Assembly: GCF_900113305.1 (NCBI RefSeq)
Contig: NZ_FOOW01000010.1
Coordinates: 1-64,000 of the forward strand
Reading direction: 5' to 3'
Length of the DNA: 64,000 nt
From: Prevotella sp. KH2C16
Lineage (GTDB): Bacteria > Bacteroidota > Bacteroidia > Bacteroidales > Bacteroidaceae
Shown in pieces: positions 6,840 through 52,858 of the stretch. The first letter of the stretch is position 1, and every line of letters starts with the position of its first letter. The notes beneath the pieces were generated by a model, which did not search any database, was not told the DNA's origin, and saw only the letters and a program-made list of their open reading frames with translations. The translations under genes and the position numbers were made by a program.

Positions 6840-6900
6840 CAAAATCGCCGATTTTATTCATAAAAATCGCCGATTTCATTGAACGAAATCGGCGATTTTG
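6840..6900. repeat. 22-bp-period palindromic array, type A, three units
   Basis: Three 17-bp units begin at 6840, 6862 and 6884, exactly 22 bases apart. Each has the form (a/c)nAAAT-CGsCG-ATTTnn. Units two and three are reverse complements over 15 bases and could form a stem (6863-6877 with 6885-6899). It lies between the convergent permease and mrp genes, so it could serve as a bidirectional terminator here, but the same array type occurs elsewhere between divergent genes. Confidence 0.85.
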
Positions 6901-6938
6901 TAAAGCTCTCTATAGCCTCCGTGAAAACTCACGACGGC

Positions 6939-8042
6939 CTAATCGTTCTTCACATGCAATATCTGCGTCTTCGGCTTCTCGCGGTTACGCTTGTTGGTTA
7001 CCGTAACCACGGCCTGCGCAAGGTTGATAAAGGCCTGCCCCGTAGCGGTCTCATAGTCGAGGGCCGAGGGCGTTCCCCCGTCGCCGTTCTCGCAAATGCT
7101 CTGCACGATGGGTATCTGCGCCAGCAACGGCACGCCCATTTCCTCCGCCAGACGCTTGCATCCCTCACGGCCGAAGATGTAATACCGGTTTTCGGGAAGC
7201 TCTGCCGGAGTGAACCACGCCATGTTCTCCACAAGGCCCAGGATGGGCACATTCACCTTTTCATTGCGATACATGTCGATGCCCTTGCGTGCATCGGCCA
7301 GCGCAACGCTCTGCGGAGTAGACACGATAACGGCTCCCGTGATGCTCAGCGTCTGCAAGAGCGTCAGGTGAATGTCGGAAGTGCCGGGAGGAGTGTCAAG
7401 GATAAAGTAGTCCAACTCTCCCCAGTCGGCGTCGGCAATGAGCTGTTTCAGCGCCGAGGTGGCCATCCCGCCGCGCCAGAGAGTGGCTGTGTCGGGATTG
7501 ACGAAGAAGCCGATGGACAACATCTCCACGCCGTATTTCTCAACGGGCTCTATCAGGTCGCGACCGTCCTTGTGCACCCCATAGGGGCGGACATTCTCCA
7601 CGCCGAACATCTTAGGCATCGACGGGCCGAAGATGTCGGTGTCGAGCAGTCCCACCTTGTAGCCTAACCGCGCCAGGGAGATGGCCAGGTTGACCGAGAC
7701 GGTCGACTTCCCCACTCCGCCCTTGCCGGAACTCACGGCGATGATGTTCTTCACCTGGGGCAGCAACTTCTCCACTTCGGGACGCGGGGCAGACCTGAAC
7801 TCGGTCTGGATTTCCACCTCCACCTCCTTGCCCACATGGTAATGGATGGCCGCCTCGGCAGCTTTCACGGTCGACTTGAGGAACGGGTCGGTGTCCCGGG
7901 GAAACAAAAGCACGATGCGCACCTTCATGCCGTTGATGCTCGGCGTGTCTGCCAGCATCTCACTCTCTATCAAGTTCTTCTTCGTACCCGGATAGATCAC
8001 GGTAGCCAAGGCATCGGTGATAAGCTTGGGATATAATGTCAT
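6939..8042 (-). CDS. Mrp/NBP35-family P-loop ATPase (iron-sulfur carrier type)
   Basis: This 367-residue protein has an N-terminal MIP18/DUF59-type domain (about residues 1-90) and a deviant Walker A motif SSGKGGVGKST (105-115). A second block has DTDIFGPSMP and the family segment LDTPPGTSDIHLTLLQ. Mrp/ApbC/Ind1 proteins bind and transfer Fe-S clusters. The usual C-terminal CxxC is not visible: the corresponding segment reads ENMAWFTPAELPENRYYIFG. Known Bacteroidota homologues, as I recall them, share this form, so cluster ligation may differ. The gene is monocistronic with its own promoter and converges on the exporter operon. Confidence 0.93.
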   Translation of the reverse strand: MTLYPKLITDALATVIYPGTKKNLIESEMLADTPSINGMKVRIVLLFPRDTDPFLKSTVKAAEAAIHYHVGKEVEVEIQTEFRSAPRPEVEKLLPQVKNIIAVSSGKGGVGKSTVSVNLAISLARLGYKVGLLDTDIFGPSMPKMFGVENVRPYGVHKDGRDLIEPVEKYGVEMLSIGFFVNPDTATLWRGGMATSALKQLIADADWGELDYFILDTPPGTSDIHLTLLQTLSITGAVIVSTPQSVALADARKGIDMYRNEKVNVPILGLVENMAWFTPAELPENRYYIFGREGCKRLAEEMGVPLLAQIPIVQSICENGDGGTPSALDYETATGQAFINLAQAVVTVTNKRNREKPKTQILHVKND

Positions 8043-8070
8043 AATTGTTTTTATATATTCTTCTATCCTA

Positions 8071-8102
8071 CAAAATTACACAAAATAAGTAGGATGAGCA
8101 AG
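8071..8102 (-). promoter_or_regulatory. Promoter of mrp
   Basis: On the minus strand, CTTG at 8102-8099 is followed after 20 bases by TAATTTTG at 8078-8071, upstream of the ATG at 8042. It lies back to back with the promoter of the GH115-like gene. Confidence 0.6.
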
Positions 8103-8118
8103 CCAAGAGGAGGAAAAA

Positions 8119-8150
8119 TTTGGATATTTCGGTTTTTTACCGTAACTTTG
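8119..8150 (+). promoter_or_regulatory. Consensus promoter abutting the GH115-like start codon
   Basis: TTTG at 8119-8122, a 20-base spacer, then TAACTTTG at 8143-8150 form a textbook Bacteroidota promoter. The ATG at 8156 starts only 5 bases after the -7 box, so the transcript should be leaderless or nearly so. Confidence 0.75.
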
Positions 8151-8155
8151 CAATA

Positions 8156-9991
8156 ATGAAATCAAGAATCCTCATCACGCTTTTCGTCAGCCTCCTCGCC
8201 CTCTCCGCGATGGCAAAAGAGGTGGTATGGTTCAATGGTCGCCAAAGTGTCTCCTACCAGTTTCACGGCAAAAAATCGCTGATTATCGACATGGCCCTCG
8301 ACCTCTTCAGCGACGACATGCACCAGCTCACCGGCAAGCGGGCTGAATCCCGTGAAGGAGGAACCATCGAGATCTTCGAGCTCGACAAGCTGAAAGACAA
8401 GGATTTCATCCAGCTGCAGAAGCGGAAGCTCCCCATCGAGCGCATCATCGCCAAGGAAGACGCCTTCTATATCGGATGCCAGGGAGGGAAAATCGTGGTC
8501 GTAGGCAGCAACACTTACGGCACGGCTTACGGCATACTGGAGCTCTCGCGCCTTGCGGGAGTCTCTCCCTGGATAGGATGGAACGACGCCCGCCCTGCGC
8601 GAAAGCACTATCTCGCCCTGAAAAGCGACTTCTACACCGTGCAATGGCCATCGGTCGAGAAGCGCGGTTTCTATGTAGACAACAGCAAGTTCGACCAGCG
8701 AAGCCTCACGGAACTGCTTCTCCGTCTGCGCGGAAACACCCTCCTGCATAAGCCCGCCACGGCAAAAGACGGCACCAAGGTGCTGCAACTGCCCGAGCGC
8801 TGGCTGCCGAGCACGCAGCCCGGATTCATCTATTGCGAGATGCAGCAGGCCTATCGGCACGGCGCGACGCATGAATGGATCATGAGCCTCAACAACCCGA
8901 GGGTGGACGCCTACCAGCTCTCGCTCTTCATGGACATGGCCTGGAACATCAGCCGCATCAACGAATCGAATATCCAGTCGCACTATGGAGAATGGCTTGC
9001 AGACATGTTCGGAGAGCATGCTGCTGCCCGATTGCTACCCGTGATGACCGAATATTACCACCTGGTCGGCATCCGCAAGCCGGAACAGATGAATGTGGAA
9101 TTTGCCGCCGATGCCTTCGGCAATGAGCTCGAACGCTACATCGACAACTACAAGGATGTGGCTTCGGCGCTCACGCCGGTGGAGAAACTCATCCCGGAAC
9201 ACCTGCAGGACGCATACTTCGCAACGATAAAATATCCCGTATATGCCGCCTGGGCCATGGCCACCAAGCAGCTTCAGGCCTTGGAGGCACGGCATATCGG
9301 GCGGCCGGAGTCGTTTCTGCACGACTCGGAAGCACTGCAGTCGGCCGTGCGCAGCTGGAAAGCCCACGGGGAAATCCTGCAGCTCACCGCTTATTATAAC
9401 GACAACTTGGCTCGTGGGAAATGGAAAGGCACGCTCGACATCACCGACAATCCGCTGATTCTCGGCGAGCCGCAGTTCCCGAAAAAGATTACAAAGAAAG
9501 AGATAGAGAAATACGGAAACGCACCGCATGTGCCCTTCAGCATGGATACAGACAATGCCCTGGTAAAGAACGCAGCAGACTACCGCAAGGCTCCCCGGGG
9601 CTCACGAGCCATCCAGATGCTGGGACACAGCATGAAGGCCATTACCGTTCCGCAAGGCGAGAGCCTCTCATTCTCGTTCTATTCGGAGTGGGAAGCCGAC
9701 GCAGTCATCCGGATTGCGGTCATTCCTACATCTGGCGACCACCGTTTCTATGTCAATGTGGATGGGAAAATCTATGACTTTACCGATACGACAGACCCGG
9801 AATCCGCTCAGGGAATTGCCGATGCCGAGCGTGGACAGGCCGTGAGAAACCTCAAGGTGCACCTTACGCGCAATAGCCACAGCATCGATATCCAAGCCGT
9901 AGGGGATGCCGTCGTCGTCGATCAGGTCATGGTCGACTACAATCCTTATCGCATATTCTATATGTTCCCCATAGCTCCGGCCCTGCATTAG
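8156..9991 (+). CDS. GH115-like protein lacking the central catalytic barrel region
   Basis: This 611-residue protein has a signal peptide (MKSRILITLFVSLLALSAMA). The first ~195 residues resemble the N-terminal part of GH115 alpha-glucuronidases (YGTAYGILELSRLAGVSPW, then KRGFYVDNSKFDQRSLTELLLRL-RGN). Later parts also match: HEWIMSLNNPRVDAYQLSLFMDMAWN and the C-terminal Y-rich and beta regions. Between about residues 200 and 222 the chain jumps from the first barrel strand to a short linker, where GH115 enzymes normally carry some 200-300 residues including the active-site acids. The frame is open throughout, so this is a deletion in the lineage, not a frameshift. It may be a binding or scaffold protein. 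The start at 8156 begins the signal peptide and follows the promoter. Confidence 0.7.
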   Translation: MKSRILITLFVSLLALSAMAKEVVWFNGRQSVSYQFHGKKSLIIDMALDLFSDDMHQLTGKRAESREGGTIEIFELDKLKDKDFIQLQKRKLPIERIIAKEDAFYIGCQGGKIVVVGSNTYGTAYGILELSRLAGVSPWIGWNDARPARKHYLALKSDFYTVQWPSVEKRGFYVDNSKFDQRSLTELLLRLRGNTLLHKPATAKDGTKVLQLPERWLPSTQPGFIYCEMQQAYRHGATHEWIMSLNNPRVDAYQLSLFMDMAWNISRINESNIQSHYGEWLADMFGEHAAARLLPVMTEYYHLVGIRKPEQMNVEFAADAFGNELERYIDNYKDVASALTPVEKLIPEHLQDAYFATIKYPVYAAWAMATKQLQALEARHIGRPESFLHDSEALQSAVRSWKAHGEILQLTAYYNDNLARGKWKGTLDITDNPLILGEPQFPKKITKKEIEKYGNAPHVPFSMDTDNALVKNAADYRKAPRGSRAIQMLGHSMKAITVPQGESLSFSFYSEWEADAVIRIAVIPTSGDHRFYVNVDGKIYDFTDTTDPESAQGIADAERGQAVRNLKVHLTRNSHSIDIQAVGDAVVVDQVMVDYNPYRIFYMFPIAPALH

Positions 9992-10009
9992 GCAAGGAAG
10001 CCCAAACCC

Positions 10010-10780
10010 TTACTTTGCGGTCTTCCGGTCAGAACGCTTCTCGCGATGATAGCTGCGATAGTCGTCCAAAGGAATCTCCACCTCCGGCTCCGTGAGCTCT
10101 CCTTGCCTTGGCAAGCGGAATTTCTGGTATCTTATGTTCAGTCCTCTTTCTATCCACATCGACTCATAATAGGTCTGGATGCCCAGAATCTTGCTCGTCT
10201 CCTCGTCAATACCCTCCGTATGATAGAGGTCTTCCGTCCTGAAGAGCAGGGGAAGGTTATTCACATCCACCACATAAGAGGTATAAGTGAAGAGAAAATT
10301 CGAGTCGGTCTTCAGGTGGATGAGGCCTCCGTCGACAAGAAAGTTGCGGTATCGGTTCAGGAAGAACGGGCTCGAAAGGCGCTTACGGGCGTTTTTCATC
10401 TGGGGATCAGAGAATGTAAGCCATATTTCCCGCACCTCGTCCTCCGCAAAAAAGCGGTCTATCATCTCGATATTGGTGCGCAGGAAAGCCACATTCTGCA
10501 GGTTTTCCTCCAACGCCATCTTGGCTCCCGTCCACATACGGGCGCCCTTGATGTCGACTCCTATGAAGTTCATGTCCGGGAAAAGCTTGGCCAAGCCTAC
10601 CGTATATTCCCCCTTTCCGCAGCCCAGTTCGAGGATAATGGGATTCCCGTTCTTGAAGTATTGCTCGCCCCAATGCCCTTTCATGGCAAACGGAACCTTG
10701 CTGACTACAGAAAAGGGAGCCTGGAAGACATTCCTGAATGTCTCCATTTCAGCAAACTTGGCCAACTTTCCTTTGCTCAT
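10010..10780 (-). CDS. trmB: tRNA (guanine-46-N7)-methyltransferase
   Basis: This 256-residue enzyme methylates G46 of tRNA with S-adenosylmethionine. The SAM-binding motif [16 protein letters not shown] lies at about residues 49-64, followed by [13 protein letters not shown] and the TrmB signature [15 protein letters not shown]. The last differs slightly from the proteobacterial FPDPWHKKRH form, as expected in Bacteroidota. The N- and C-termini are slightly extended relative to E. coli TrmB. The stop lies 18 bases from the convergent GH115-like gene. It is probably co-transcribed behind ilvE, whose stop is 6 bases before this start. Confidence 0.93.
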
Positions 10781-10786
10781 AAAACA

Positions 10787-11803
10787 CTATTCTACAACTA
10801 CGGTTGTCCATCCATGCTTGTCCTCAAGGGTTCCATACTGAATACCTCGAAGGGTATCATACAGCTTCCGGGACCACGGACCCGGTTCCTCGCCGTATTC
10901 AATATGGGCGCCGGTGTCAAGGTCATCAATGTAAGAAATCGGCGAGATGACCGCCGCCGTGCCGCAGGCACCCGCCTCCTCAAAGGTTGCCAGCTCCTCG
11001 TAAGGTATCTGACGACGCTCCACCTTCATGCCCAAGTCCTCGGCAACCTGCATCAGACTCTTGTTGGTAATGCTTGGAAGAATGGAAGAAGACTTCGGCG
11101 TGATGTATGTGTTGTTCTTGATGCCGAAGAAATTTGCCGCCCCGCACTCGTCCATATACTTCTTTTCCTTCGCGTCGAGATAGAATTCCGACGCATATCC
11201 CTTTGCCGCGGCCAGGTTATGGGCATACAGTGAGGCCGCATAGTTGCCGCCCACCTTGTATTTGCCGGTACCCAACGGAGCCGAACGGTCATAGTTATGG
11301 ACGATGGCGTAAGGGTTACTCTGGAAGCCGCCCTTGAAGTACGGGCCTACGGGAGTTACTAAAATGACAAACATATAGTCGCGAGCGGCATGAACGCCTA
11401 CCTGCGGCGTGATGCCTATCAGCAATGGGCGGATGTACAAGGTGGAACCGCTCTCGTAAGTGGGAACCCACTCCTGGTTGAGCCGAACCACCTTTTTCAC
11501 CATCTCCTCGAACATTTCCGTCGGAAGCTCAGGCATTACGATGTAGCGGCAAGTGCTCTGCAGCCGCTTCGCATTCTCGTCCATGCGGAAGACGCGAATC
11601 TTTCCGTCGGGGCAGCGATAGGCCTTCAGCCCCTCAAAAGCCTCCTGGCCGTAATGCAGACAGGCAGCCGCTATTGATATATTGAATGTATCCTCTGAAC
11701 AGACTTCTATCTCGCCCCACTGGCCGTTGTGGTAATAGCAACGCACATTATAGTCCGTCTTCATATACCCGAACGACAAATTCTCCCAATCGATATTCTT
11801 CAT
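10787..11803 (-). CDS. ilvE: Branched-chain amino acid aminotransferase
   Basis: This 338-residue class IV PLP-dependent aminotransferase interconverts leucine, isoleucine and valine with their 2-oxo acids. The PLP lysine is K183 within GTGKYKVGGNYAAS. Other family landmarks are HYGQEAFEGLKAYR and the ECGAANFFGI segment. The start at 11803 (MKNIDWENLSFGY) matches the family N-terminus; an 18-codon extension upstream would run over the promoter region. It is followed closely by trmB. Its substrates link it to the leucine genes at 53-57 kb. Confidence 0.95.
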   Translation of the reverse strand: MKNIDWENLSFGYMKTDYNVRCYYHNGQWGEIEVCSEDTFNISIAAACLHYGQEAFEGLKAYRCPDGKIRVFRMDENAKRLQSTCRYIVMPELPTEMFEEMVKKVVRLNQEWVPTYESGSTLYIRPLLIGITPQVGVHAARDYMFVILVTPVGPYFKGGFQSNPYAIVHNYDRSAPLGTGKYKVGGNYAASLYAHNLAAAKGYASEFYLDAKEKKYMDECGAANFFGIKNNTYITPKSSSILPSITNKSLMQVAEDLGMKVERRQIPYEELATFEEAGACGTAAVISPISYIDDLDTGAHIEYGEEPGPWSRKLYDTLRGIQYGTLEDKHGWTTVVVE

Positions 11804-11834
11804 TGTTTTCTGATTTAAAAGTGATACTTTGCTA

Positions 11835-11866: not shown

Positions 11867-11883
11867 TATTCCTCCGAGAAAAC

Positions 11884-12075: not shown

Positions 12076-12080
12076 ATCGT

Positions 12081-14880: not shown

Positions 14881-16266
14881 ATGGACAACAAGAAAGCGAC
14901 GCTGGAACTGGGCAGCAAGCCTGTCGGACAACTGCTGTGGCAGTATGCCCTTCCGGCCATCATTGCCATGACCGCCTCTTCCCTGTACAATATCATCGAC
15001 AGAATCTTCATCGGGCAGGTGGTAGGGCCGCTGGCCATCTCGGGGCTTGCCATCACCTTTCCCTTCATGAACCTCTCCGGAGCCTTCGGGGCGGCCGTGG
15101 GCGTGGGAGCCTCGACGGCCATTTCCGTGAAGTTAGGCCAGAAAGACTACGATACGGCGGAGAATCTGCTGGGCAACACGGTAACCCTGAACCTCATCAT
15201 CGGCTTTCTCTTCGCCGTCGTCTGCCTGGTATTCCTCGACCCCATCCTGCGTTTCTTCGGAGCGAGCGACGCCACCCTGCCCTATGCCCGCGACTTCATG
15301 CAGGTGATTCTGGCAGGAAACATCATCACGCACATGTATTTTGGCATGAACGCCGTGCTCCGCGCGGCTTCCAAACCCAGGCAGGCCATGTATGCCACGA
15401 TATTCACCGTGGCGATGAACATCCTGCTCGACATCGTCTTCATATGGTGGTGGCACTGGGGAATCCGCGGCGCGGCCTTCGCCACCATGCTCTCGCAGAC
15501 CCTCGCACTGGTATATCAGATGAGGCTCTTCTCCGACAAAAAAGAGCTTCTGCACCTGAAAAAGGGCATCTACAGGCTGAAGGCCGACCTTGTGAAGAAC
15601 ATCGTCGGCATCGGCATCTCCCCGTTCCTGATGAACGCCTGTGCCTGTATCATCGTCATCTTCATGAACAACCAGCTTGTCAGCTATGGCGGCGACCTGA
15701 GCGTGGGAGCCTATGGCATCTCAAACGGAGTGGCCACGGTATTCATTATGTTCGTCATCGGGCTGAACCAGGGCATGCAGCCTATCGCCGGATACAACTA
15801 CGGGAGCCTGCAGTTCGACCGCCTGATGCATGTGCTGAAGCTGGCCATCCTCGCGGCAACCGTCATCATGACCACGGGCTGGGCCATCGGGATGCTCATC
15901 CCGGGTCTGCTCGCGCGCATGTTCACCACCGACGCCACGCTCATCGGGATGTCCGTCAAGGCCATCCGCATCAATATGCTCCTCTTCCCGATCATCGGTT
16001 ACCAGATGGTGGTTACCAACTTTTTCCAATGCATAGGGAAAGTGAAAATCAGCATTTTCCTCTCTCTTTCCAGACAGTTGCTTTTCCTCCTGCCCTGCCT
16101 GCTGATACTTCCCCGCTTCTGGGATATTGACGGCGTATGGTATTCCCTGCCCGTTTCAGACGCCACGGCATCGGTGGTGGCTCTCGCGATTATGATTATC
16201 TATATGAGAAAATTCAATAAACAACATAAAGAAATGCAAGATGGAGCAGCAGAAAATCATCATTAA
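14881..16266 (+). CDS. MATE-family multidrug/cation antiporter
   Basis: This 461-residue inner-membrane protein has about 12 hydrophobic segments in two homologous halves. MATE landmarks are PAIIAMTASSLYNIIDRIFIG near the N-terminus and NQGMQPIAGYNYG in the second half. It would export cationic or aromatic compounds in exchange for sodium or protons; the substrate is not deducible. The long upstream extension of the frame is not used: the start at 14881 (MDNKKATLELGSKPVGQLLW) fits the family and follows the -7 box by 20 bases. Its 3' end overlaps the cytidylate-kinase-like gene by 26 bases. Confidence 0.93.
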   Translation: MDNKKATLELGSKPVGQLLWQYALPAIIAMTASSLYNIIDRIFIGQVVGPLAISGLAITFPFMNLSGAFGAAVGVGASTAISVKLGQKDYDTAENLLGNTVTLNLIIGFLFAVVCLVFLDPILRFFGASDATLPYARDFMQVILAGNIITHMYFGMNAVLRAASKPRQAMYATIFTVAMNILLDIVFIWWWHWGIRGAAFATMLSQTLALVYQMRLFSDKKELLHLKKGIYRLKADLVKNIVGIGISPFLMNACACIIVIFMNNQLVSYGGDLSVGAYGISNGVATVFIMFVIGLNQGMQPIAGYNYGSLQFDRLMHVLKLAILAATVIMTTGWAIGMLIPGLLARMFTTDATLIGMSVKAIRINMLLFPIIGYQMVVTNFFQCIGKVKISIFLSLSRQLLFLLPCLLILPRFWDIDGVWYSLPVSDATASVVALAIMIIYMRKFNKQHKEMQDGAAENHH

Positions 16267-16879
16267 CATCGGCCGGCAGATAGGCAGCGGCGGATGCACC
16301 ATCGCCCAGATGCTGGCCAAGGAGTTCGGCGCGAAGCTATACGACAAGGAAATCCTGAACCTTGCCGCCAAGGAGAGCGGCTTCTCCGAGAAGTTCTTCG
16401 AGCAGAACGATGAAAGGAAAGGCTTCGCGAAGTCGCTCTTCCACATCCATGTACCCCTGCTCGGAGAAGGCAATTTCTATAAGAACGACTTCTCGCAGGA
16501 GAGCCTCTACCAGTTTCAGAGCAATGCCATCAAGAAGGCGGCAGCCGAGGGAAACTGCGTCTTCGTGGGCCGCACGGCCGACTATGTGCTGCGCGACAAC
16601 CCCGACAAGGTCGACATCTTCATCACGGCCGACATGGACGACCGCATCCGGAGGGTGGCCGAGCGCCACCAGTTCACGGAAGAAAGGGCCCGGAGACATA
16701 TCGTGGACGGCGAAAGCAGTCGTTCCTCCTACTACAACTACTATACCGGGAAGCGTTGGGGAAGCAGCGAGAGCTACGACCTCTGCGTCAATTCGAGCGT
16801 GTTGGGCATAGAAGCTACCGGGAAGTTTATCGCCGACTTCATCAGGAAAAAGTTTTACAGCGAAAGTGATATGCCGTAA
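16241..16879 (+). CDS. Cytidylate kinase-like protein
   Basis: This 212-residue P-loop protein belongs to the Cytidylate_kin2 group. It opens with INIGRQIGSGGCTIAQMLA, where GRQIGSGG is the nucleotide-binding loop, followed by LYDKEILNLAAKESG. A central FVGRTADYVLRDNP segment and an arginine-rich lid (RIRRVAERHQFTEERARRHI) follow. The family resembles CMP kinase but its members are usually distinct from the essential cmk, so nucleotide specificity is uncertain. Translation is probably coupled to the MATE gene through the 26-base overlap. A palindromic array follows its stop. Confidence 0.85.
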   Translation: MEQQKIIINIGRQIGSGGCTIAQMLAKEFGAKLYDKEILNLAAKESGFSEKFFEQNDERKGFAKSLFHIHVPLLGEGNFYKNDFSQESLYQFQSNAIKKAAAEGNCVFVGRTADYVLRDNPDKVDIFITADMDDRIRRVAERHQFTEERARRHIVDGESSRSSYYNYYTGKRWGSSESYDLCVNSSVLGIEATGKFIADFIRKKFYSESDMP

Positions 16880-16910
16880 ACAGGAGAGTAAAAAGCCGTC
16901 AGAAGGCGGG

Positions 16911-16971
16911 CTTTTAGCCGTTAGAAGGCAACCTTTTAACGGCTAAAAGGAAAGCAAAAGGCGGCCTTTTG
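16911..16971. repeat. 22-bp-period palindromic array, type B, three units
   Basis: Three 17-bp units start at 16911, 16933 and 16955, exactly 22 bases apart: CTTTTA-GCCGT-TAGAAG, CTTTTA-ACGGC-TAAAAG and CAAAAG-GCGGC-CTTTTG. The last two are perfect 6-bp inverted repeats round a 5-bp core. Units one and two can also pair with each other over 12 bases (16911-16922 with 16938-16949). The array lies between two co-directional genes and could terminate transcription after the kinase-like gene. Confidence 0.8.
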
Positions 16972-17011: not shown

Positions 17012-17524
17012 ATGACAAAAAAGATAGGAATCATCAGCGACACCCACGGATATTGGGACGAAAAATACTTACAGTATTTCGACTCCTGCGATGAGGTCTG
17101 GCATGCGGGCGACATCGGCTCCACGGAGGTAGCCGACAAGTTCGAGGCCATGCACCCGCTATTCCGAGCCGTACACGGCAACATCGACGGCCAGGACATC
17201 CGGTGCCGCTACCCCGAGGTGCTGCGGTTCCGATGCGAAGAAGTGGATGTATTGATGAAGCACATCGGCGGCTATCCGGGCAACTACGACCGCTCCATCC
17301 AGAGCCGCCTCTATGCCTCCCCGCCCAACCTCTTCATCTCCGGACACTCGCATATACTGAAGGTGAAGTTCGACAAGACGCTCAACCTGCTGCACATCAA
17401 CCCCGGAGCCGCGGGTATGCAGGGGTGGCACACGGATCGCACGATCGTCCGCCTCACCATCGAAGGAAAGAAATTCACCGACTGCGAGCTCATCACGCTC
17501 GGCGAGCACGGCAACAGAATATGA
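17012..17524 (+). CDS. YfcE/MJ0936-type metallophosphoesterase
   Basis: This 170-residue calcineurin-like phosphoesterase shows all metal-binding blocks: GIISDTHGYW, HAGDIGS, GNIDGQ (a variant of GNCD/GNxD), a histidine in MKHIGGYPGN and GHSHILKV. INPGAAG follows. Family members hydrolyse phosphodiesters with Mn2+ or Ni2+, but natural substrates are mostly unknown. The length is typical. The next gene starts 2 bases after its stop, suggesting a small operon with two tiny membrane proteins and then possibly the nucleotide-sugar genes. Confidence 0.92.
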   Translation: MTKKIGIISDTHGYWDEKYLQYFDSCDEVWHAGDIGSTEVADKFEAMHPLFRAVHGNIDGQDIRCRYPEVLRFRCEEVDVLMKHIGGYPGNYDRSIQSRLYASPPNLFISGHSHILKVKFDKTLNLLHINPGAAGMQGWHTDRTIVRLTIEGKKFTDCELITLGEHGNRI

Positions 17525-24070: not shown

Positions 24071-24213
24071 ACAAAATTCCCAGAGTTACCATTCCTTTTA
24101 ACGATATTTTTAAGCAATAATTGTAATCCGGGCGGCACGCCGGGGGACGGAAGGCGACTACCGAAACACCTCCAGACGGCTTCCGGATTTTCTTTTTGCC
24201 GCTACCCGCCAGA

Positions 24214-24274
24214 TAAAATCGGCGATTTTGTCCCATGATTTCGGCGATTTTGTCGCACAATCTCGCCGATTTTG
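24214..24274. repeat. 22-bp-period palindromic array, type A, three units
   Basis: Units start at 24214, 24236 and 24258 with exactly 22-base steps: TAAAAT-CGGCG-ATTTTG, TGATTT-CGGCG-ATTTTG and CAATCT-CGCCG-ATTTTG. Unlike the other type A arrays it lies between divergent genes (kinase pair and topoisomerase III), so a terminator role is unlikely here. The rest of the 354-base gap holds only the two promoters. Confidence 0.85.
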
Positions 24275-24342
24275 TCAGAGTGCCTGCCGCCTTTCATGAA
24301 ACAAATAATCGTCCTTCCTGCCACCGAGTGAAATATTTTTCT

Positions 24343-24373: not shown

Positions 24374-26362
24374 ATGATAGTTTGTATTGCCGAGAAACCC
24401 AGCGTAGCCAAGGACATAGCACGAATCATCGGAGCTACGGCCTCCCACGACGGCTACATGGAGGGCAACGGATACCAGGTTACATGGACTTTCGGCCACC
24501 TCTGCTGCCTCAAGGAGCCCGACGACTACAGCGAGAACTGGAAACACTGGAGCCTCGCCGCCCTGCCCATGATTCCCGCACGCTTCGGCATCAAGCTCAT
24601 CGAGGACGCCGGAATCAAGAAGCAGTTCGCCATTATAGAGCGGCTCATGCAGGCGGCCGACGGCATCATCAACTGCGGCGACGCCGGCCAGGAGGGCGAA
24701 CTGATTCAGCGGTGGGTGATGCAGAAGGCCAACGCCACCTGTCCGGTCAGGCGACTGTGGATTTCCTCGATGACCGACGAGGCCATCCGCGAGGGTTTCC
24801 AGCGGCTGAAAGACCAGGGCGAATACCAGAGCCTCTATCTCGCAGGGCTCTCACGGGCCATCGGCGACTGGCTCCTGGGCATGAACGCCACCCGCCTCTA
24901 CACGCTCAAGTACGGCCAGAACAGGCAGGTGTTGAGCATCGGACGCGTGCAGACGCCCACCCTCGCGCTGATAGTGAACCGGCAGAAGGAAATCGACGGC
25001 TTCAAGCCCGAGCCCTACTGGATTCTGGCAACGATATACCGCGACACGCAGTTCACGGCCACCAAGGGCAAGTTTCTCAGCAAGGAAGAGGGCGAGAAAG
25101 CCTTCGAGACCATTGCGGGAAAACCCTTCACGGTTACCGATGTGCAGAAGAAGAAGGGCACGGAGGCACCGCCCCACCTCTACGACCTCACCTCGCTGCA
25201 GGTGGACTGCAACCGTAAGTTCAGCTATTCGGCCGACATGACGCTCAAGCTCATACAGAGTCTCTACGAGAAGAAGTTCACCACCTATCCCCGCGTGGAC
25301 ACGCAATACCTCTCGGACGACATCTACCCCAAGTGTCCCGCCATCCTCAAGGGACTCGACGGATATGCCCCCCTCACCCAGCCGATTGTCGGAAAGAAAC
25401 TCCGCAAGGACAAAAAGGTGTTCGACACCTCGAAGGTTACCGACCACCATGCCATCATTCCTACCGGCGTTCCTGCCCGCGGGCTCACCGATATGGAGCG
25501 GAATGTCTACGAACTGGTGGCCCTGCGCTTCATCAGCGTGTTCTATCCCGACTGCAAATTCTCCACCACCACGGTCATGGGAACGGCTGGCGAGGTGGAA
25601 TTCAAGGTCAGCGGCAAGGAGATTCTCGACCCCGGATGGCATGCCGTGTATGCCAAGGAAGAGCAGAAGGCAACCGACGAAGACAGCAAGAGCGGCGACG
25701 AGGAGCGCACCCTGCCCTCGTTCATTGTCGGCGAGACGGGGCCGCACACGCCCACCCTTACCGAGAAGTGGACCACACCGCCCAAATACTACACCGAGGC
25801 GACGCTGCTCCGCGCCATGGAGACGGCCGGCAAGTTCGTGGAAGACGAGGAACTGCGCGCCGCCTTGAAGGAAAACGGCATCGGAAGACCGTCGTCGAGA
25901 GCCGGAATCATAGAGACCCTCTTCAAGCGACGCTACATCCGCCGCGAGCGCAAGAACCTGCTCGCCACCCCCACGGGCATCGAACTCATCGACACCATCC
26001 ACGAAAGACTGCTCACGAGCTGTGAACTCACGGGCATCTGGGAGAAGAAACTGCGCGACATCGAGCACAAGACCTACGACCCCCAGCAGTTCATCAACGA
26101 GCTGAAAGAGCAGATCGGCAACATCGTAACCGATGTGCTGAGCGACAACTCCAACCGCCGGGTAGCCACGACCACCGAGGCCGACCTCAAGAAGAGAAGC
26201 CCCCGCAAGCAGGCTCCGCGGCTGAAAGCCGACGACACCCTCATCGGCAAGCCCTGTCCCAAATGCGGCAAGGGCACTATTATAAAAGGTAAAACTGCCT
26301 ACGGATGCAGCAACTGGAAGAACGGATGCGACTTCCGCCTGCCGTTCGAGGATAAAGCATAG
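24374..26362 (+). CDS. topB: DNA topoisomerase III (type IA)
   Basis: This 662-residue enzyme relaxes and decatenates DNA. The TOPRIM domain contains IAEKPSVAKDIARIIG with the catalytic glutamate at residue 7 and CGDAGQEGEL with D103. The active-site tyrosine is Y305 in KFTTYPRVDTQYL. The C-terminus has a single four-cysteine zinc-binding element (PCPKCGKGTI through GCSNWKNGCDF). Length and domain order fit TopB proteins of Bacteroidota, where both chromosomal and mobile-element copies exist. Here it lies alone with its own promoter and no mobilisation genes nearby. Confidence 0.93.
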   Translation: MIVCIAEKPSVAKDIARIIGATASHDGYMEGNGYQVTWTFGHLCCLKEPDDYSENWKHWSLAALPMIPARFGIKLIEDAGIKKQFAIIERLMQAADGIINCGDAGQEGELIQRWVMQKANATCPVRRLWISSMTDEAIREGFQRLKDQGEYQSLYLAGLSRAIGDWLLGMNATRLYTLKYGQNRQVLSIGRVQTPTLALIVNRQKEIDGFKPEPYWILATIYRDTQFTATKGKFLSKEEGEKAFETIAGKPFTVTDVQKKKGTEAPPHLYDLTSLQVDCNRKFSYSADMTLKLIQSLYEKKFTTYPRVDTQYLSDDIYPKCPAILKGLDGYAPLTQPIVGKKLRKDKKVFDTSKVTDHHAIIPTGVPARGLTDMERNVYELVALRFISVFYPDCKFSTTTVMGTAGEVEFKVSGKEILDPGWHAVYAKEEQKATDEDSKSGDEERTLPSFIVGETGPHTPTLTEKWTTPPKYYTEATLLRAMETAGKFVEDEELRAALKENGIGRPSSRAGIIETLFKRRYIRRERKNLLATPTGIELIDTIHERLLTSCELTGIWEKKLRDIEHKTYDPQQFINELKEQIGNIVTDVLSDNSNRRVATTTEADLKKRSPRKQAPRLKADDTLIGKPCPKCGKGTIIKGKTAYGCSNWKNGCDFRLPFEDKA

Positions 26363-32784: not shown

Positions 32785-32880
32785 GACAAAATCGGCGAGA
32801 TTGTCCGGCAAAATCGGCGATTTTGTTCCATGATTTCGCCGATTTTGTCAGCCTGAAGACGGCTTATCGCCCTGCGGGGA
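32785..32880. repeat. 96-bp repeat copy 1, containing a type A 22-bp-period array
   Basis: Within it, units start at 32787, 32809, 32831 and 32853 (22-base steps): CAAAAT-CGGCG-AGATTG, CAAAAT-CGGCG-ATTTTG, TGATTT-CGCCG-ATTTTG and CTGAAG-ACGGC-TTATCG. The whole 96 bases recur in direct orientation at 45955-46050 with one difference (T here, C there, at offset 64). The copy lies between convergent folA and the hybrid regulator gene. Bases 32881-32967 show nothing further. Confidence 0.92.
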
Positions 32881-45876: not shown

Positions 45877-45936
45877 CTTTTCACCCCTCAGGTTATGTCT
45901 TCATCTATTGGGAACATAGCTTTGAGGGGTTAAAAG
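45877..45936 (+). terminator. Hairpin after susD
   Basis: The arms CTTTTCACCCCTCA (45877-45890) and TGAGGGGTTAAAAG (45923-45936) pair at 13 of 14 positions, with a second small inverted pair inside the loop. It lies about 50 bases after the susD stop and probably terminates the PUL operon. Confidence 0.6.
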
Positions 45937-46050
45937 ATAAGCCGCCTTCAGGCTGACAAAATCGGCGAGATTGTCCGGCAAAATCGGCGATTTTGTTCCA
46001 TGATTTCGCCGATTTTGCCAGCCTGAAGACGGCTTATCGCCCTGCGGGGA
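45935..46050. repeat. 96-bp repeat copy 2 plus left arm, five-unit type A array
   Basis: Units start at 45935, 45957, 45979, 46001 and 46023, all 22 bases apart. The cores are GCCGC, CGGCG, CGGCG, CGCCG and ACGGC. The first and last units are reverse complements of each other over 19 of 20 bases (45937-45956 with 46020-46039), so the whole array forms one large inverted structure. Bases 45955-46050 duplicate 32785-32880 with one mismatch. It lies between convergent susD and lrp. Confidence 0.92.
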
Positions 46051-46080: not shown

Positions 46081-46115
46081 AGGCCTCCCAAAAGCATGAT
46101 GCTTTTGGGAGGCCT
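46081..46115. terminator. Bidirectional hairpin between susD and the Lrp regulator gene
   Basis: A near-perfect 35-base palindrome (arms AGGCCTCCCAAAAGCAT and its complement). On the minus strand it is followed by a TTGTT tract, so it probably terminates the regulator gene. Confidence 0.75.
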
Positions 46116-46634: not shown

Positions 46635-46653
46635 ATGATTACTATTTTACATG

Positions 46654-48248: not shown

Positions 48249-49087
48249 TTCCCAAGTTTCTTCTGCTGAATGGCATCGAGCAACGAGATGGCCGACTCCT
48301 CCATCTGAGCCGTGAGGTGGTCGATCTTCGAGAGAATATAGTTGTAGAACACCTGCAGAATGAGGGCTACGATGATACCGAAAATGGTTGTTATCAGCGC
48401 CACTTTCATTCCCGAGGCCACGATAGTGGGACTGATGTCTCCTGCCATCTGAATCTGGTCGAAGGCCATTACCATGCCTATGACGGTGCCCAGGAAGCCA
48501 AGAGACGGCGCGATGGCAATGAAAAGGGTAATCCACGAGCATCCCTTCTCCAGATTGGCAGACTGCACGGAACCATAAGAGGCTATGCTGCGCTCGATGG
48601 TCTCTATCGACTCGTCAATCCGGAGCAGCCCCTGATAGCAAATGCTCGCCACCGGACCTCTCGTTTCCCTGCACTGGCTCTTCGCCCCCTCGATGTCGTC
48701 GGCGGCTATCTTGTCCTCTAAATCAGCCACGAACTTCTTGGCATTGATTTCCGAAAGACTGAGATAAATGATGCGTTCGATACAGAAGGCAAGCCCCAGA
48801 ACCAAGGCCAAGGCCACCAGCGACATGAAACCGGCATTGCCCTCAATGAACTTTTTCTTCAAGGCCTGATGGAAACCCGTGGTCCCGCCGCCAATCATTG
48901 CCGTGTCTGCATCCTCCGTGGCAACGGCGTCCAGCTGTTGCGAAAGGGTGGAATCTATCCCCATTGCCTGAACCACTCTGCCTGCAGAGGCCGCAGAATC
49001 ATCCTGTGCCTGCACCCGAAGGGCAGACAGAAGCACCACGGCAATGAGAAAAGACTTGAACGACAACCTGTTTATCAGCTTCTTCAT
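48245..49087 (-). CDS. exbB: ExbB/TolQ/MotA-family proton channel
   Basis: This 280-residue protein has an N-terminal extension of about 85 residues starting with a signal-like hydrophobic segment (SFKSFLIAVVLLSALRVQAQ) and an acidic periplasmic stretch. Three ExbB helices follow, including GFMSLVALALVLGLAFCIER and the conserved TM2-TM3 region (WITLFIAIAPSLGFLGTVIGMV, ALITTIFGIIVALILQVFYN). It forms the pentameric channel energising TonB. It is the first gene of the exbB-X-exbD-exbD operon. Confidence 0.93.
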   Translation of the reverse strand: MKKLINRLSFKSFLIAVVLLSALRVQAQDDSAASAGRVVQAMGIDSTLSQQLDAVATEDADTAMIGGGTTGFHQALKKKFIEGNAGFMSLVALALVLGLAFCIERIIYLSLSEINAKKFVADLEDKIAADDIEGAKSQCRETRGPVASICYQGLLRIDESIETIERSIASYGSVQSANLEKGCSWITLFIAIAPSLGFLGTVIGMVMAFDQIQMAGDISPTIVASGMKVALITTIFGIIVALILQVFYNYILSKIDHLTAQMEESAISLLDAIQQKKLGK

Positions 49088-49154
49088 AATCTATTTTTCC
49101 GTTCTTAATCCGGCAGGGGCTTCTCTGGAAAACATCCCACACCGGCCGAGAGTG

Positions 49155-49185
49155 CAAAAATAAGCTATTTCCATTGAAATGCCAA
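49155..49185 (-). promoter_or_regulatory. Promoter of the exbB operon
   Basis: TTG at 49185-49183, a 20-base spacer and TATTTTTG at 49162-49155 (minus strand) precede the exbB ATG at 49087 by about 68 bases. Confidence 0.6.
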
Positions 49186-49313
49186 GCGGATTTGTATAAT
49201 ATTTCTAAAAAACGAATCGATGGCAATTGCACCATCCAGAAAGAAGTCTGATTATTCCCCACCGCCGCTCATAAATTAGACAATTTATAAATTGCAAAAA
49301 TATTCTCGCTATT

Positions 49314-49346
49314 TTTGGGTAGTTCGGAAATTATATTGTAAATTTG
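49314..49346 (+). promoter_or_regulatory. Promoter of the ferredoxin gene
   Basis: TTTG at 49314-49317, a 21-base spacer and TAAATTTG at 49339-49346 match the consensus fully. The leader to the ATG at 49431 is about 80 bases. The remaining gap between 49186 and 49313 shows nothing recognisable. Confidence 0.7.
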
Positions 49347-49430
49347 CATCGTCAATTGTAGGTATCATCATCCGAAAGACAAAAGAGAATTAAGAACAAC
49401 ATTATAATTTACTTAAAAACAAGATTTATT

Positions 49431-49601
49431 ATGGCTTATGTAATTGGTAACGACTGCATCGCTTGCGGTACATGTATTGATGAGTGCCCGGTAGGCGCTA
49501 TTTCTGAAGGCGATATCTATCACATCGACGCTGATGCGTGCACAGAATGCGGCACATGTGCCAGCGTTTGCCCTAACGAGGCAATCTCTCTTCCTGAATA
49601 A
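49431..49601 (+). CDS. 2[4Fe-4S] ferredoxin
   Basis: This 56-residue protein, short enough to be missed by length filters, has two complete CxxCxxCxxxCP motifs: CIACGTCIDECPVGAI and CTECGTCASVCPNEAI. It is a clostridial-type low-potential electron carrier, probably for pyruvate:ferredoxin oxidoreductase, Rnf or hydrogenase-type partners encoded elsewhere. It starts MAYVIGNDCIACG and has a strong promoter and terminator of its own, which suggests high, independent expression. Codon use is more A/T rich than in the neighbours, as is common for highly expressed genes here. Confidence 0.95.
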   Translation: MAYVIGNDCIACGTCIDECPVGAISEGDIYHIDADACTECGTCASVCPNEAISLPE

Positions 49602-49634
49602 GAGACAAGCTCCTCCTTGCGGGGATTTCAGAAT

Positions 49635-49677
49635 AAAAAGGCTGGCGGATGAAGTTCCTTTCTCTGCCGGTCTTTTT
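49635..49677 (+). terminator. Intrinsic terminator after the ferredoxin gene
   Basis: The arms AAAAAGGCTGGC (49635-49646) and GCCGGTCTTTTT (49666-49677) pair over 12 positions with two G-U wobbles and end in a T tract. A second small hairpin followed by a T run lies at about 49700-49738. Confidence 0.75.
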
Positions 49678-49774
49678 GTTTAAGCACGCAATAAACCCGA
49701 AAGAATCCCGTTTAGGATTCGGGACTCTACCTTTTTTCCCGGTGGAAAATATGCCAGACAAGAAGAAAAGAAAG

Positions 49775-50521
49775 ATGAAGCTACATTTCACGATTCTCCT
49801 CATCCTGCTCACGGGCATTCTGCCCGTCGCCGCTCAGGAACGCATGGTGCAAAACAGGCCGTATACCGACCTCAGGCCCGTGCATTTCGGGATTCTCGTA
49901 GGCACCCACGCGCAGGACCTGGAGTTCAACAACATCGGCGTGCAGACCATCGTCAACGAAGACGGGAGCGAGACACAGGCCCTCATAACCACAGATCAGA
50001 ACCGGTGGGACGCAGGCTTGAATGTAGGCGTACTGGCCGAATTCCGCCTACACGAGAACTTTCAGTTCCGTGTGGCACCGGCTCTCTATTTCGGAAACCG
50101 CCACCTCACCTTCCATAATCACAAGGAAACCGACGGCTCCGGACAGCCCATCATGCAGCAACAAGACCTGAAGACCGTATATGTATCGTCGGCCTTGGAC
50201 CTGATTTTTGCCGCCCCGCGCAGCAACAACCACCGCCCTTATCTCATGGCAGGACTGAATCCGATGCTCAACCTGAGCGGCGGCGACCAAGACTACATCA
50301 AACTGAAGAAGATGGATGTCTTTGCAGAGGTCGGCGTGGGGTGCGATTTCTATCTGCCTTTCTTCAAGCTGCGCCCGGAGCTCAAGTTTCTTTTCGGCCT
50401 GACGAACAGCCTCGACACGAAGCATGCCGACAAATTGAAGGACGCCAACATGCGCCCCTACGCAAAATCAGTAGACAAGGCTCATTCAAAGATGATCGTG
50501 CTTACCTTCTATTTCGAGTGA
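49775..50521 (+). CDS. porT: PorT-like outer-membrane beta-barrel protein (T9SS)
   Basis: This 248-residue protein has a signal peptide (LHFTILLILLTGILPVAAQ) and the PorT/SprT N-terminal signature NRPYTDLRPVHFGILVG. Barrel strands with alternating residues follow (NFQFRVAPALYFGNRHLTF, KLRPELKFLFGLTNSL), ending in the aromatic strand SKMIVLTFYFE. PorT is needed for type IX secretion; its role in the machine is not well defined. A start at 49751 would add eight basic residues (MPDKKKRK) and is possible. With the PorE-like gene at 26.5 kb it shows T9SS genes scattered over this region. No promoter box is clearly visible. Confidence 0.85.
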   Translation: MKLHFTILLILLTGILPVAAQERMVQNRPYTDLRPVHFGILVGTHAQDLEFNNIGVQTIVNEDGSETQALITTDQNRWDAGLNVGVLAEFRLHENFQFRVAPALYFGNRHLTFHNHKETDGSGQPIMQQQDLKTVYVSSALDLIFAAPRSNNHRPYLMAGLNPMLNLSGGDQDYIKLKKMDVFAEVGVGCDFYLPFFKLRPELKFLFGLTNSLDTKHADKLKDANMRPYAKSVDKAHSKMIVLTFYFE

Positions 50522-50586
50522 GGCTTCCACCCCTCAAAAGAAACCATGGAAACACCTAAAAACAACAAACCAATAATTAAAACCAC

Positions 50587-52365
50587 ATGAAAACAAGCAA
50601 ATTCTACACCCTTTTACTCTTACTATGGTGCATCAGCCTCTCGGCAATCGCACAGACAGAGTGGCACAACCCCATGGACACCGCCGTCCCCTACATTGGC
50701 GGAAGAGCGTGGAATGCCGAGATCGGCAACCGTTCTTTCAACCGCATGCCCGACCGGTTCGAAGCTATCATGCCCAAGAGTGTATGGAGCCTGCAGAGCC
50801 AATGTGCCGGTCTGTCAGTGCGTTTCGTAAGCAATTCCAAGAACATCACCGTCAGATACGGCCTTGCCTTCAACGCCGACGGCAACCGCAACATGGCTCC
50901 GCTCAACCATTCAGGCGTAGACCTCTACGGAAAGACTGCCGACGGCGACTATCACTGGATAGGAACCCACATGAGCTGGAAGTGGACAAGTAGCAAGACA
51001 GACACCATTTCCATGCGCTGGGAACGACTCTCCCCCCCCTCGCACAAGGAACGCGGCATAGAATATGTGCTCTACCTTCCCAACTACAACAGGCTCAAAT
51101 ATGTGGAAATAGGTGTCGACAAGGGTGCCCAGTTCCAATTCCTCCACGAGAGCGCGGAGCGTCCCGTGGTCGTCTATGGCTCCAGCATCATTCAGGGAGC
51201 CTCCCCCTCGCGCCCCGGACTGATGATAACCAACCTCGTGCAGAGGGAACTCGGCTATCCCATCGTCAACCTCGGCTTCTCGGGCTCGGCACGAATGGAG
51301 ACCCCGCTCTTCGACGCCATGTCGGAAATAGACGCCCGCGCCTTTGTCATCGACCCGATGCCCAACAGCTTCCGGTTAGACCGCGACACCATCATCAACC
51401 GCGCCAAGCGGGGCGTCTACAAGCTGCGCAGCAAGAGCCAGGCTCCCATCCTGCTCGTAGAAGCCCACGGCATGGGCGACAAAGTGTTCCGTGCCGATGT
51501 CGAGGACATGTACCGCAAGGGCGACAGCTACCTGCACGAGGCCTACCAGCAGTTGCAGGCCGAAGGCGTGAAAGGACTCTACTACCTGCCGCACAGCGAC
51601 ATCGACATGCAGGACAACGACATGGTGGAGGGCTCGCACCCCAACGACCTCGGCAACCGGATATATGCCGACGCCTACGAGAAGAAGCTCCGCGAAATGC
51701 TGCAGGAAGACGAATGGAACAAGCGATACCCTCCCGTAACGCAGCGACGCGACGGATGCTATGAGTGGATGGCGCGGCACAATGCCGTCATCGCCCTCAA
51801 CCACACCACCAACCCCGAGATCCTGCTCATCGGCAACTCGATAACCCACTTCTGGGGAGGCAACCCCCAGATGGGCTTTAACAACGGCGGGGAGGCCTGG
51901 AACAAGACTTTCGGAAAACGCCGCGTAACCAACATGGGCTTCGGATGGGACCGCATAGAGAATGTTTTCTGGCGTATCTACCACGGTGAGCTCGAGGGAT
52001 GCTCGCCCAAGCACATCTGCCTGCTCATCGGCATCAACAACTATGCCAACAAGGCGGAAGACATAGCACAAGGCATCGTCGACCTCGCCGCCCTCATCCG
52101 CAAGCGGCAGCCACAGGCCAAGTTGCACATCATCAAAGTATATCCTGCCCGGAACCGCGAGGAGAAGGTGGCCCGAATCAACCGACTGCTCGAAGCGAAG
52201 CTCGTGTGCGACGACCACACCGACCTGCTCGACTTCAACAAGAGCCTCCTCCTGCCAGACGGAAGCGGAAAGATAGACCCGCAATTCTTCGGCAGCGACG
52301 GGCTGCACCCCAACGAAAAGGGATACACCGTCATCGGAAAGCAACTGAAGAAACACTTGAAGTAA
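50587..52365 (+). CDS. Exported protein with two SGNH/GDSL hydrolase domains
   Basis: This 592-residue protein has a signal peptide (TLLLLLWCISLSAIAQ), a beta-rich SGNH N-terminal domain (about 25-185) and two SGNH hydrolase domains in tandem. Domain one (about 190-375) has VVVYGSSIIQGA with the nucleophile at S199/S200, and EGSHPNDLG near 348-356, where the usual aspartate of DxxH is glutamate. Domain two (about 405-592) has LLIGNSITHFWGG with S418, GINN, and a standard SDGLHPNEKGY. Such proteins are often carbohydrate acetylesterases or platelet-activating-factor-like acetylhydrolases. It is monocistronic; substrates are unknown. Confidence 0.88.
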   Translation: MKTSKFYTLLLLLWCISLSAIAQTEWHNPMDTAVPYIGGRAWNAEIGNRSFNRMPDRFEAIMPKSVWSLQSQCAGLSVRFVSNSKNITVRYGLAFNADGNRNMAPLNHSGVDLYGKTADGDYHWIGTHMSWKWTSSKTDTISMRWERLSPPSHKERGIEYVLYLPNYNRLKYVEIGVDKGAQFQFLHESAERPVVVYGSSIIQGASPSRPGLMITNLVQRELGYPIVNLGFSGSARMETPLFDAMSEIDARAFVIDPMPNSFRLDRDTIINRAKRGVYKLRSKSQAPILLVEAHGMGDKVFRADVEDMYRKGDSYLHEAYQQLQAEGVKGLYYLPHSDIDMQDNDMVEGSHPNDLGNRIYADAYEKKLREMLQEDEWNKRYPPVTQRRDGCYEWMARHNAVIALNHTTNPEILLIGNSITHFWGGNPQMGFNNGGEAWNKTFGKRRVTNMGFGWDRIENVFWRIYHGELEGCSPKHICLLIGINNYANKAEDIAQGIVDLAALIRKRQPQAKLHIIKVYPARNREEKVARINRLLEAKLVCDDHTDLLDFNKSLLLPDGSGKIDPQFFGSDGLHPNEKGYTVIGKQLKKHLK

Positions 52366-52433
52366 CGGCCGCTGCCATCCCGGCAGTCGCCCCCGCCCCC
52401 TGCGCCCGCACCAAGCGGCGAAAAGAATAATGA

Positions 52434-52475
52434 CCCCAGCCCCCGGCCGACACACTCAAAGGCCGGGGGCTGGGG
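52434..52475 (+). terminator. Strong GC hairpin after the SGNH hydrolase gene
   Basis: Perfect 15-bp arms CCCCAGCCCCCGGCC (52434-52448) and complement (52461-52475) with a 12-base loop. There is only a weak T tract after it. Apart from this and the array at 52776-52858, the 559-base gap 52366-52924 shows no gene or RNA I can recognise. Confidence 0.6.
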
Positions 52476-52775
52476 TTGCATATGAGTCCTCATGGCGCGC
52501 CAAGCCCTGCCCTTAAAGGAGCAAGTCCTGACAATCATGCATGAAAAAGCACGATCCATATGACAGATTCTTAAAAAAACGGCACGATTGCTTGCACATC
52601 CCAACATAAATGCTTAATTTTGTAATCAAGACAAAAGAAACAAGCCGGCGATACCCGCAGACACCCCGCCGGGCATGAGCGAAAGCCGACGGCACAGGCC
52701 GCGACAGGGAAAACGGCGTGCGGCGGTATGTCCTTCACCGGCAAGCGATATCGACGGCCGCCATTTACCGGCTGA

Positions 52776-52858
52776 TTACCAGTAAGTGGTAAAGGTGTTA
52801 CCAGCCGTTGGTAATGACATTACACGCCGCTTGTAACACGATTACACACGGCGTGTAA
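52776..52858. repeat. 22-bp-period palindromic array, type C, four units, upstream of leuC
   Basis: Four 17-bp inverted repeats start at 52776, 52798, 52820 and 52842, exactly 22 bases apart: TTACCA-GTAAG-TGGTAA, TTACCA-GCCGT-TGGTAA, TTACAC-GCCGC-TTGTAA and TTACAC-ACGGC-GTGTAA. The arms drift but remain complementary in three of four units (one mismatch in the third). The last unit ends 66 bases before the leuC ATG. It could be an operator array for the leu operon or an intergenic repeat related to the other arrays in this window. Confidence 0.85.

Follow-up and report, generated by a model that had tools for sequence, protein, structure and literature searches.

The question raised by the stretch of Prevotella sp. 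KH2C16 DNA analysed here (the window: positions 1-64,000 of contig NZ_FOOW01000010.1, from an assembly of 3.22 Mb in 58 contigs) is what six short, strictly phased palindromic arrays are doing in its intergenic regions. Each array is built of 17-bp units, in which a 5-bp core lies between two 6-bp arms, and consecutive units start 22 bp apart. A preliminary description of the window had proposed that the six arrays share one grammar, which is borne out by our analysis both in the own genome and in relatives. The phased palindromic arrays form a real and genus-wide family, for which no description was found in the literature searched, and the reading we favour, with a probability of roughly 0.45, is that they are protein-bound sites organising the chromosome.

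The period of the arrays was examined in an own-genome sample of 1,412,307 bp, window included. Three consecutive units (6+5+6 bp, with at least 5 of 6 arm pairs) started at 75 positions at period 22 and at 14 positions at period 33, with 0-3 starts at each of the other periods from 17 to 44; the period-33 starts arise as a by-product of the 11-bp alternation described below. One shuffled copy of the sample gave no start at period 22 and one each at periods 25, 26 and 35. A stricter count retained 50 arrays at period 22, 10 at period 44, three at period 33 and one each at periods 21 and 24, with none at the remaining periods between 17 and 45. Comparison with shuffled sequence and preservation of the phasing in other copies had been named in the preliminary description as the checks to be made: the arrays are far commoner at period 22 than in the shuffled control or at other periods, and the phasing is maintained in other copies and in other species. 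The placement of all units on one face of the DNA, also proposed there, follows from the 22-bp phasing. Twenty high-scoring period-24 starts in the same sample possibly represent one or two unrelated tandem repeats.

A de novo search revealed 100 places at a score of at least 28, eight of which were unclassifiable, leaving 92 classed arrays in 1.41 Mb: 43 of the CAAAAT class (arms CAAAAT/TAAAAT), 27 of the TTAC class (TTACCA/TTACAC/TTACAA), 11 of the GTTTC class (GTTTCA) and 11 of the CTTTTA class. Phased cores, defined by the pattern xCSGx or CGSCG with a genome-wide rate of 6.8%, were present at offsets -22, 0, 22, 44 and 66 in 56, 74, 80, 78 and 52 of the 92 arrays, the GC-rich cores keeping phase one unit past the matched arms. 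At offsets -88, -66, -44, 88 and 110 the cores exceeded 6.8% without a clear step (17, 16, 25, 22 and 23 arrays), and hence five phased cores are counted and no more. Since a unit of 17 bp (6+5+6) is followed by a spacer of 5 bp, arms recur every 11 bp in alternating orientation. GC content likewise alternates at 11-bp steps across the array, and in the symmetrised consensus of the 43 CAAAAT arrays the entire 22 bp is palindromic about the core and about the spacer. The array is better described as a series of alternating inverted 11-mers, with one half-site per helical turn.

Arms that change while staying complementary had been taken in the preliminary description as a sign that the inverted repeat, and not a fixed sequence, is selected. 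When arms were tested for covariation, those of the GTTTC and CTTTTA classes did not agree clearly more often than expected, either over the core or over the spacer; TTAC arms agreed in excess whatever their distance, and the CAAAAT class showed a deficit across the spacer, on account of which the composition of its half-sites was examined in the 39 of 43 arrays with at least two CGSCG cores. Besides the consensus CAAAAT, the arms of these arrays show two variant types, CAATCT-like and TGATTT-like, which were set post hoc from the array table. At the two ends the arm follows the consensus in 34 and 36 of the 39 arrays, exactly one variant half-site occurs in 65 of 78 spacer dyads (within-array shuffles: mean 48.3, maximum 63 of 5000), and one variant of each type is found in 23 of 29 two-variant arrays (14.7 expected). 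Blocks between cores occur in the two orientations in about equal numbers (18/17 and 16/14). A variant arm occupies slot 2 in 25 of 39 and slot 5 in 25 of 39 arrays, for which reason the earlier wording that units are mostly self-complementary is too generous for this class. The claim of selection on the inverted repeat also needs qualification, because two non-complementary CAAAAT variants recur under a composition rule; sequence seems to matter besides the inverted-repeat form.

Analysis of relatives showed that the geometry is kept across the genus while the letters turn over. CAAAAT arms (three units, at most 3 mismatches) were found in the own genome only, among 40 genomes. TTAC arms at 22 bp (at most 1 mismatch) were found in 4 of 151 family genomes, with 86 matches in the own genome, four in G189 and one each in G095 and G082; a reversed TTAC control also gave one match in each of two genomes, so that it is their sequence, and not their number, that supports the two single hits. 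A phylum scan for TTAC arms found them in the own genome only, among 296 genomes including two others of the family. Within the genus, GTTTC arms (at most 2 mismatches) were present in 81 of 398 genomes, the own one among them, and within the order in 2 of 295, namely the own genome and one of the same family. The reversed GTTTC control matched 7 of 398 genomes, once each except G310 (46 matches), whose matches are read as a CAAAG...CTTTG arm class on a 22-bp step. In several other species the spacer of GTTTC arrays is often ACTTT/AAAGT, and the spacers of this class may therefore be conserved as well.

Furthermore, de novo searches revealed new arms on the same step in the relatives G072 (ATGAAT-AGGCC-ATTCAT and GTATGT-AGGCT-ACATAC) and G095 (GTGCGG-AGGCT-TCGCAC), and Prevotella-group loci yielded further ones, including TTTCCA, GTACAT, CAATCA and CAAAGT. 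At a score of at least 30 these loci held 30 repeats at period 22 and 16 at period 21, the latter read as direct repeats or chance. The count of 22 of 80 loci with period 22 is an upper value, as some (L252, L265) are direct repeats; two stricter counts gave 9 places and 18 places, the latter beside 6 at period 21. No array was seen in small samples of the relatives G044 (20 kb), G114 (62 kb) and G131 (40 kb), and an 80-kb sample of G147 gave doubtful AT-rich hits only.

The placement of the arrays along the chromosome was examined with respect to genes and to one another. Of 87 arrays at a score of at least 29, two in predicted open reading frames and two at contig edges were excluded; the remaining 83 lie between convergent (33), co-directional (38) and divergent (12) genes, compared with 99, 264 and 109 of 472 background gaps longer than 60 bp, gene context being taken from crude gene calls. 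Arrays are over-represented between convergent genes (odds 2.5, P 4e-4), and their shortage between divergent genes is not significant (P 0.085). Spacing was assessed for the 72 of 92 classed arrays on four long contiguous stretches (68 gaps; mean gaps 9.3, 17.4, 15.0 and 12.5 kb) against nulls that distribute the same number of arrays at random over the actual intergenic gaps; six definitions of an eligible gap were used, with 3000 simulations each. Gaps below 5 kb numbered 7 of 68 versus 22-24 expected, with 0 of 3000 simulations as low under each null, and the pooled coefficient of variation (CV) of the gaps was 0.610 versus 0.82-0.86 expected (P 0.0000-0.0013 over the six nulls). A later test included every place at a score of at least 28 on two stretches, classed or unclassed. 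A 120-kb stretch (100 kb new, 20 kb from the first sample) had none of 8 gaps below 5 kb (null 2.4, P 0.023), and 100 kb of the relative G095, chosen for its TTAC match and bearing mostly other arms, had 1 of 8 (null 3.1, P 0.082) and a CV of 0.44 versus 0.75 (P 0.049). Class order is random, with same-class neighbours in 25 of 68 gaps versus a shuffle mean of 22.2 (sd 3.4), and six of the seven short gaps separate arrays of different classes. The classes seem interchangeable in whatever holds the arrays apart.

A mobile replicon shows the same geometry between an initiator-like gene and a ParA operon, which we count in favour of chromosome-organising sites. Two inverted arrays of four TTACCA...TCGTAA units each, at 22-bp steps, are carried by the phage-like IMG/VR contig L295 (IMGVR_UViG_3300011989_000009; 10110-10192 and 10351-10433). 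On one side of them lies a Rep3-like gene (E 0.0011, below Pfam's cut-off), on the other an operon that encodes a ParA-like ATPase (AAA_31, E 2.5e-17) together with a protein of 121 aa that has no Pfam match. This array region is likely an origin or partition region of the same geometry. Iteron-like repeats on a 22-bp step, GTAAACA...TGTGGTTT, flank the RepB gene of Segatella copri plasmid L324 (NZ_CP085934.1) on both sides (5178-5350, 6899, 7280); these replicons suggest that the 22-bp step is also in use at plasmid origin or partition regions. A period-22 repeat, AATTACATAGTAACATGGGA, was also noted at position 1900 of Bacteroides uniformis plasmid L326 (CP054202.1). Relatives of the L295 ParA occur in 2633 plasmid records and 69 phage records, and among viral contigs in L295 itself alone; a period-22 array was absent from four of six examined plasmids with such relatives (L321/L327, L322/L328, L323, L325). 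In viral contigs, CAAAAT-class patterns gave no match and two-unit TTAC matches were found in 22 contigs, about chance by a rough estimate, with three or more full units in L295 alone. A weak GTTTC array lies near an integrase-like gene in L298.

Plasmid iterons share with the arrays the size of the unit, about 17-22 bp, and the 22-bp step, as seen in the RepB repeats of L324 and in the TTAC...GTAA arrays beside the Rep3-like gene of L295. Iterons, such as those of RK2 and R6K, are confined to one origin, are mostly direct repeats and are accompanied by an initiator gene, whereas the arrays are palindromic and dispersed. Iteron-origin membership was rejected, as Rep3_N (PF01051) had no match in the own genome (and was found in 1 of 12 genomes).

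A chromosome-organising site was among the possibilities raised in the preliminary description, and it has become the leading one since arrays of different classes keep their distance from one another; the role itself is a predicted one. Dimers of a putative DNA-binding protein would bind the 11-base half-sites side by side, and we infer that different arm classes would be recognised by paralogues that differ in the half-site they prefer. The output would be organisation of the chromosome, through a supercoil or domain boundary or through bridging between arrays, and not control of single genes, with arrays set apart along the chromosome serving as anchor sites. A fuller picture, put forward tentatively, is of a hitherto undescribed chromosome-organising system in Prevotella-like bacteria. 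Families of related DNA-binding proteins would line up on arrays spaced 10-15 kb apart, with a protomer at each helical turn and a separate half-site for every protein; the classes would be interchangeable as spacers of the chromosome, and the letters would turn over between species under a fixed 22-bp ruler.

Several observations weigh against chromosome-organising sites. The evidence for evenness depends on a crude gene caller and is limited to classified arrays; the per-contig CV test gave P values of 0.013, 0.017, 0.109 and 0.375, and the CV of the later 120-kb stretch a P value of 0.219. The rule of one variant of each type is reached or exceeded by some shuffles (maximum 25 of 29 in 5000). 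A co-occurring dedicated binding protein, which the preliminary description had suggested looking for, was not found in a narrow search limited to the 121-aa protein of L295 and Rep3_N. The 121-aa protein had no match in the own genome and a best E of 0.229 among 30 genomes, other partition proteins not being searched for, with no relatives in the plasmid collection and only two in a large protein set; a parS-type partition site, judged by an own-genome relative of this protein, was rejected. Finally, arrays 4 and 5 of the window are 98% identical over 102 bp with differing flanks, and a second near-copy pair is 96% identical over 82 bp. A purely functional site needs no near-copies, and these pairs show that arrays can be copied.

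The near-copies favour the main rival, in our view a somewhat unlikely one, by which the arrays are non-autonomous mobile repeats copied without any host function, their palindromes being the target of a mobilising enzyme. For array 5 with its flanks, 40 of 126 candidate stretches of the own genome were scored, and these gave at least 80 matches when both strands are counted. The arrays also resemble bacterial interspersed mosaic elements (BIMEs), composed of repetitive extragenic palindromic (REP) sequences and associated with REP-associated tyrosine transposases (RAYTs): as far as the available part of PMC2817692 describes these, the two share an intergenic position, many copies (92 arrays here), palindromic units in alternating orientation and regular spacing, several classes per genome and species-specific sequences, to which a convergent bias may be added. 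They differ from REP/BIME elements in their AT-rich units of 17 bp, repeated exactly every 22 bp with a core of 3-4 units, in even spacing across classes and in lacking both a GTAG-type head and a Y1 match. The Y1 transposase domain (Y1_Tnp, PF01797) had no match in the own genome, which is 99.8% complete, and was present in 22 of 30 genomes searched, and a GT(A/G)G head 5' of the palindrome was absent by eye from the four class consensuses. REP/RAYT membership was accordingly rejected for the own genome, and with it, in the strict sense, the REP-like element considered in the preliminary description; the arrays work somewhat like BIMEs yet fail these two defining tests.

Speaking against mobile repeats, homology stops no more than about 45 bp from the three-unit core (pairs of at least 75 bp at 80% identity or more), with no sign of a constant terminal repeat; one further pair listed is a single place found twice. 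The inverted outer units of array 5 are not common to the CAAAAT class. Copying alone does not yield several unrelated classes with one geometry, and the avoidance between classes would require a target immunity common to all of them. On contig C33 a gene lies between two near-identical CTTTTA arrays; it gave no lead.

Action at the RNA level, in which tandem hairpins of 6 bp with 5-nt loops at transcript ends would stop transcription or protect mRNA, we consider decidedly unlikely. It would suit the excess between convergent genes, and the palindromic candidates reported for Bacteroidetes are, in the accessible part of PMC8040213, mostly interpreted as terminators; some of them could be such arrays. 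The mismatches across cores speak for a different target of selection: over all classes, 230 of 342 are A-A, T-T, A-G or C-T, with 49 G-T and 63 A-C, and when 43 co-directional arrays are read on their sense strand, G-T (32) is somewhat commoner than A-C (22) and non-wobble mismatches still make up 117 of 171. As the mismatches are mostly non-wobble, they would be better accounted for by selection on a DNA site than by selection for hairpins in RNA. The about equal numbers of block orientations and the 12 of 83 arrays between divergent genes likewise argue against hairpins in transcripts. The intrinsic terminator (a GC-rich stem followed by a T run) was rejected as a candidate, terminator-like matches overlapping 2 of the 6 arrays in the window, where alone they were scored. 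A strong terminator-like hairpin of 16 pairs, distinct from array 5, lies 42 bp beyond it in the same convergent gap (46081-46115). A fold of the whole array into a single hairpin suits array 5 and was rejected because the spacers of the other arrays are by eye not mutually complementary. Rfam models, run on the window, gave nothing at gathering score, the mir-249 match over array 5 (E 0.11) reaching 26.7 bits against a cut-off of 70.

Wrapping sites for DNA gyrase or a histone-like protein, at which the 11-bp AT/GC alternation would set a bend and the palindromes would be secondary, appear improbable. The alternation itself, the convergent bias and the spacing of roughly 10-15 kb would accord with such sites, and BIME-2 elements bind gyrase, according to the part of PMC2817692 that was available; a bending code, however, needs neither arms that agree letter for letter within an array nor a composition rule for half-sites. 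Least probable of all, with only a very slight chance, is a functionless mutational product of template switching between neighbouring short inverted repeats, which would keep arms identical and yield about equal block orientations by inversions at palindromes and leaves the fixed 22-bp step, the conserved cores, an arm class in 81 of 398 genomes and the even spacing unexplained.

Among other known repeats, triple operators of the phage lambda type share with the arrays three consecutive, slightly differing 17-bp palindromic sites, but occupy one locus per phage at uneven steps of 23-24 bp. The BrickBuilt miniature inverted-repeat transposable element (MITE) of Porphyromonas gingivalis, from a related order, shares dispersed short tandem repeats, and differs in having 23-nt direct repeats within a longer MITE and a consensus that is not palindromic; its terminal repeats resemble those of the IS5 family (statements from the accessible portion of PMC4596501). 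Repeats of P. gingivalis are also treated in PMC5771137, as its accessible portion indicates. No description of arrays such as ours in Prevotella or Bacteroidota was found among the matches listed for open-access titles and abstract openings.

The six arrays of the window were all recovered where the preliminary description had placed them, and the 22-bp step is kept by every unit without exception. Array 1 (CAAAAT class, 6840..6900; units starting at 6840, 6862 and 6884) lies in a convergent gap between a plus-strand gene with its stop at 6802 and a minus-strand gene (6939-8042), which by resemblance we take to be Mrp-like; an outer unit at 6818..6834 has a GCCGT core in the 22-bp phase and arms without match. 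Array 2 (CTTTTA/CTTTTG class, 16911..16971; units at 16911, 16933 and 16955), with an in-phase GCCGT core in its left outer unit (16889..16905), lies between the co-directional genes 16241-16879 and 17012-17524. Array 3 (CAAAAT class, 24214..24274; units at 24214, 24236 and 24258) is flanked by a divergent gene pair, of which the right-hand gene (24374-26362) presumably encodes DNA topoisomerase III, judging by resemblance, and has in-phase GCCGC cores in both outer units (24192..24208 and 24280..24296). Array 4 (CAAAAT class, 32787..32847; units at 32787, 32809 and 32831), the near-copy of array 5, has an outer unit at 32853..32869 with an in-phase ACGGC core. The three central units of array 5 (CAAAAT class, 45957..46017; starts at 45957, 45979 and 46001) lie between convergent genes, and its outer units, which are inverted repeats of each other, have in-phase GCCGC (45935..45951) and ACGGC (46023..46039) cores. 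Array 6 (TTACCA/TTACAC class, 52776..52858; four units at 52776, 52798, 52820 and 52842) is flanked by a co-directional gene pair. Neighbouring arrays are separated by gaps of 10.1, 7.3, 8.6, 13.2 and 6.8 kb. The cores, earlier given as nearly always GCCGT, GCCGC, CGCCG or their complements, fit RCSGY or CGSCG in most units, with exceptions such as GTAAG at 52782.

To our knowledge, evenly placed chromosomal sites of known purpose have been found in few bacteria. The rigid geometry of the arrays, their interchangeable classes and their mutual avoidance make domain spacing in Bacteroidota testable through one protein, and fast turnover of half-sites at a fixed geometry would record how a family of DNA-binding proteins and its numerous sites evolve together.

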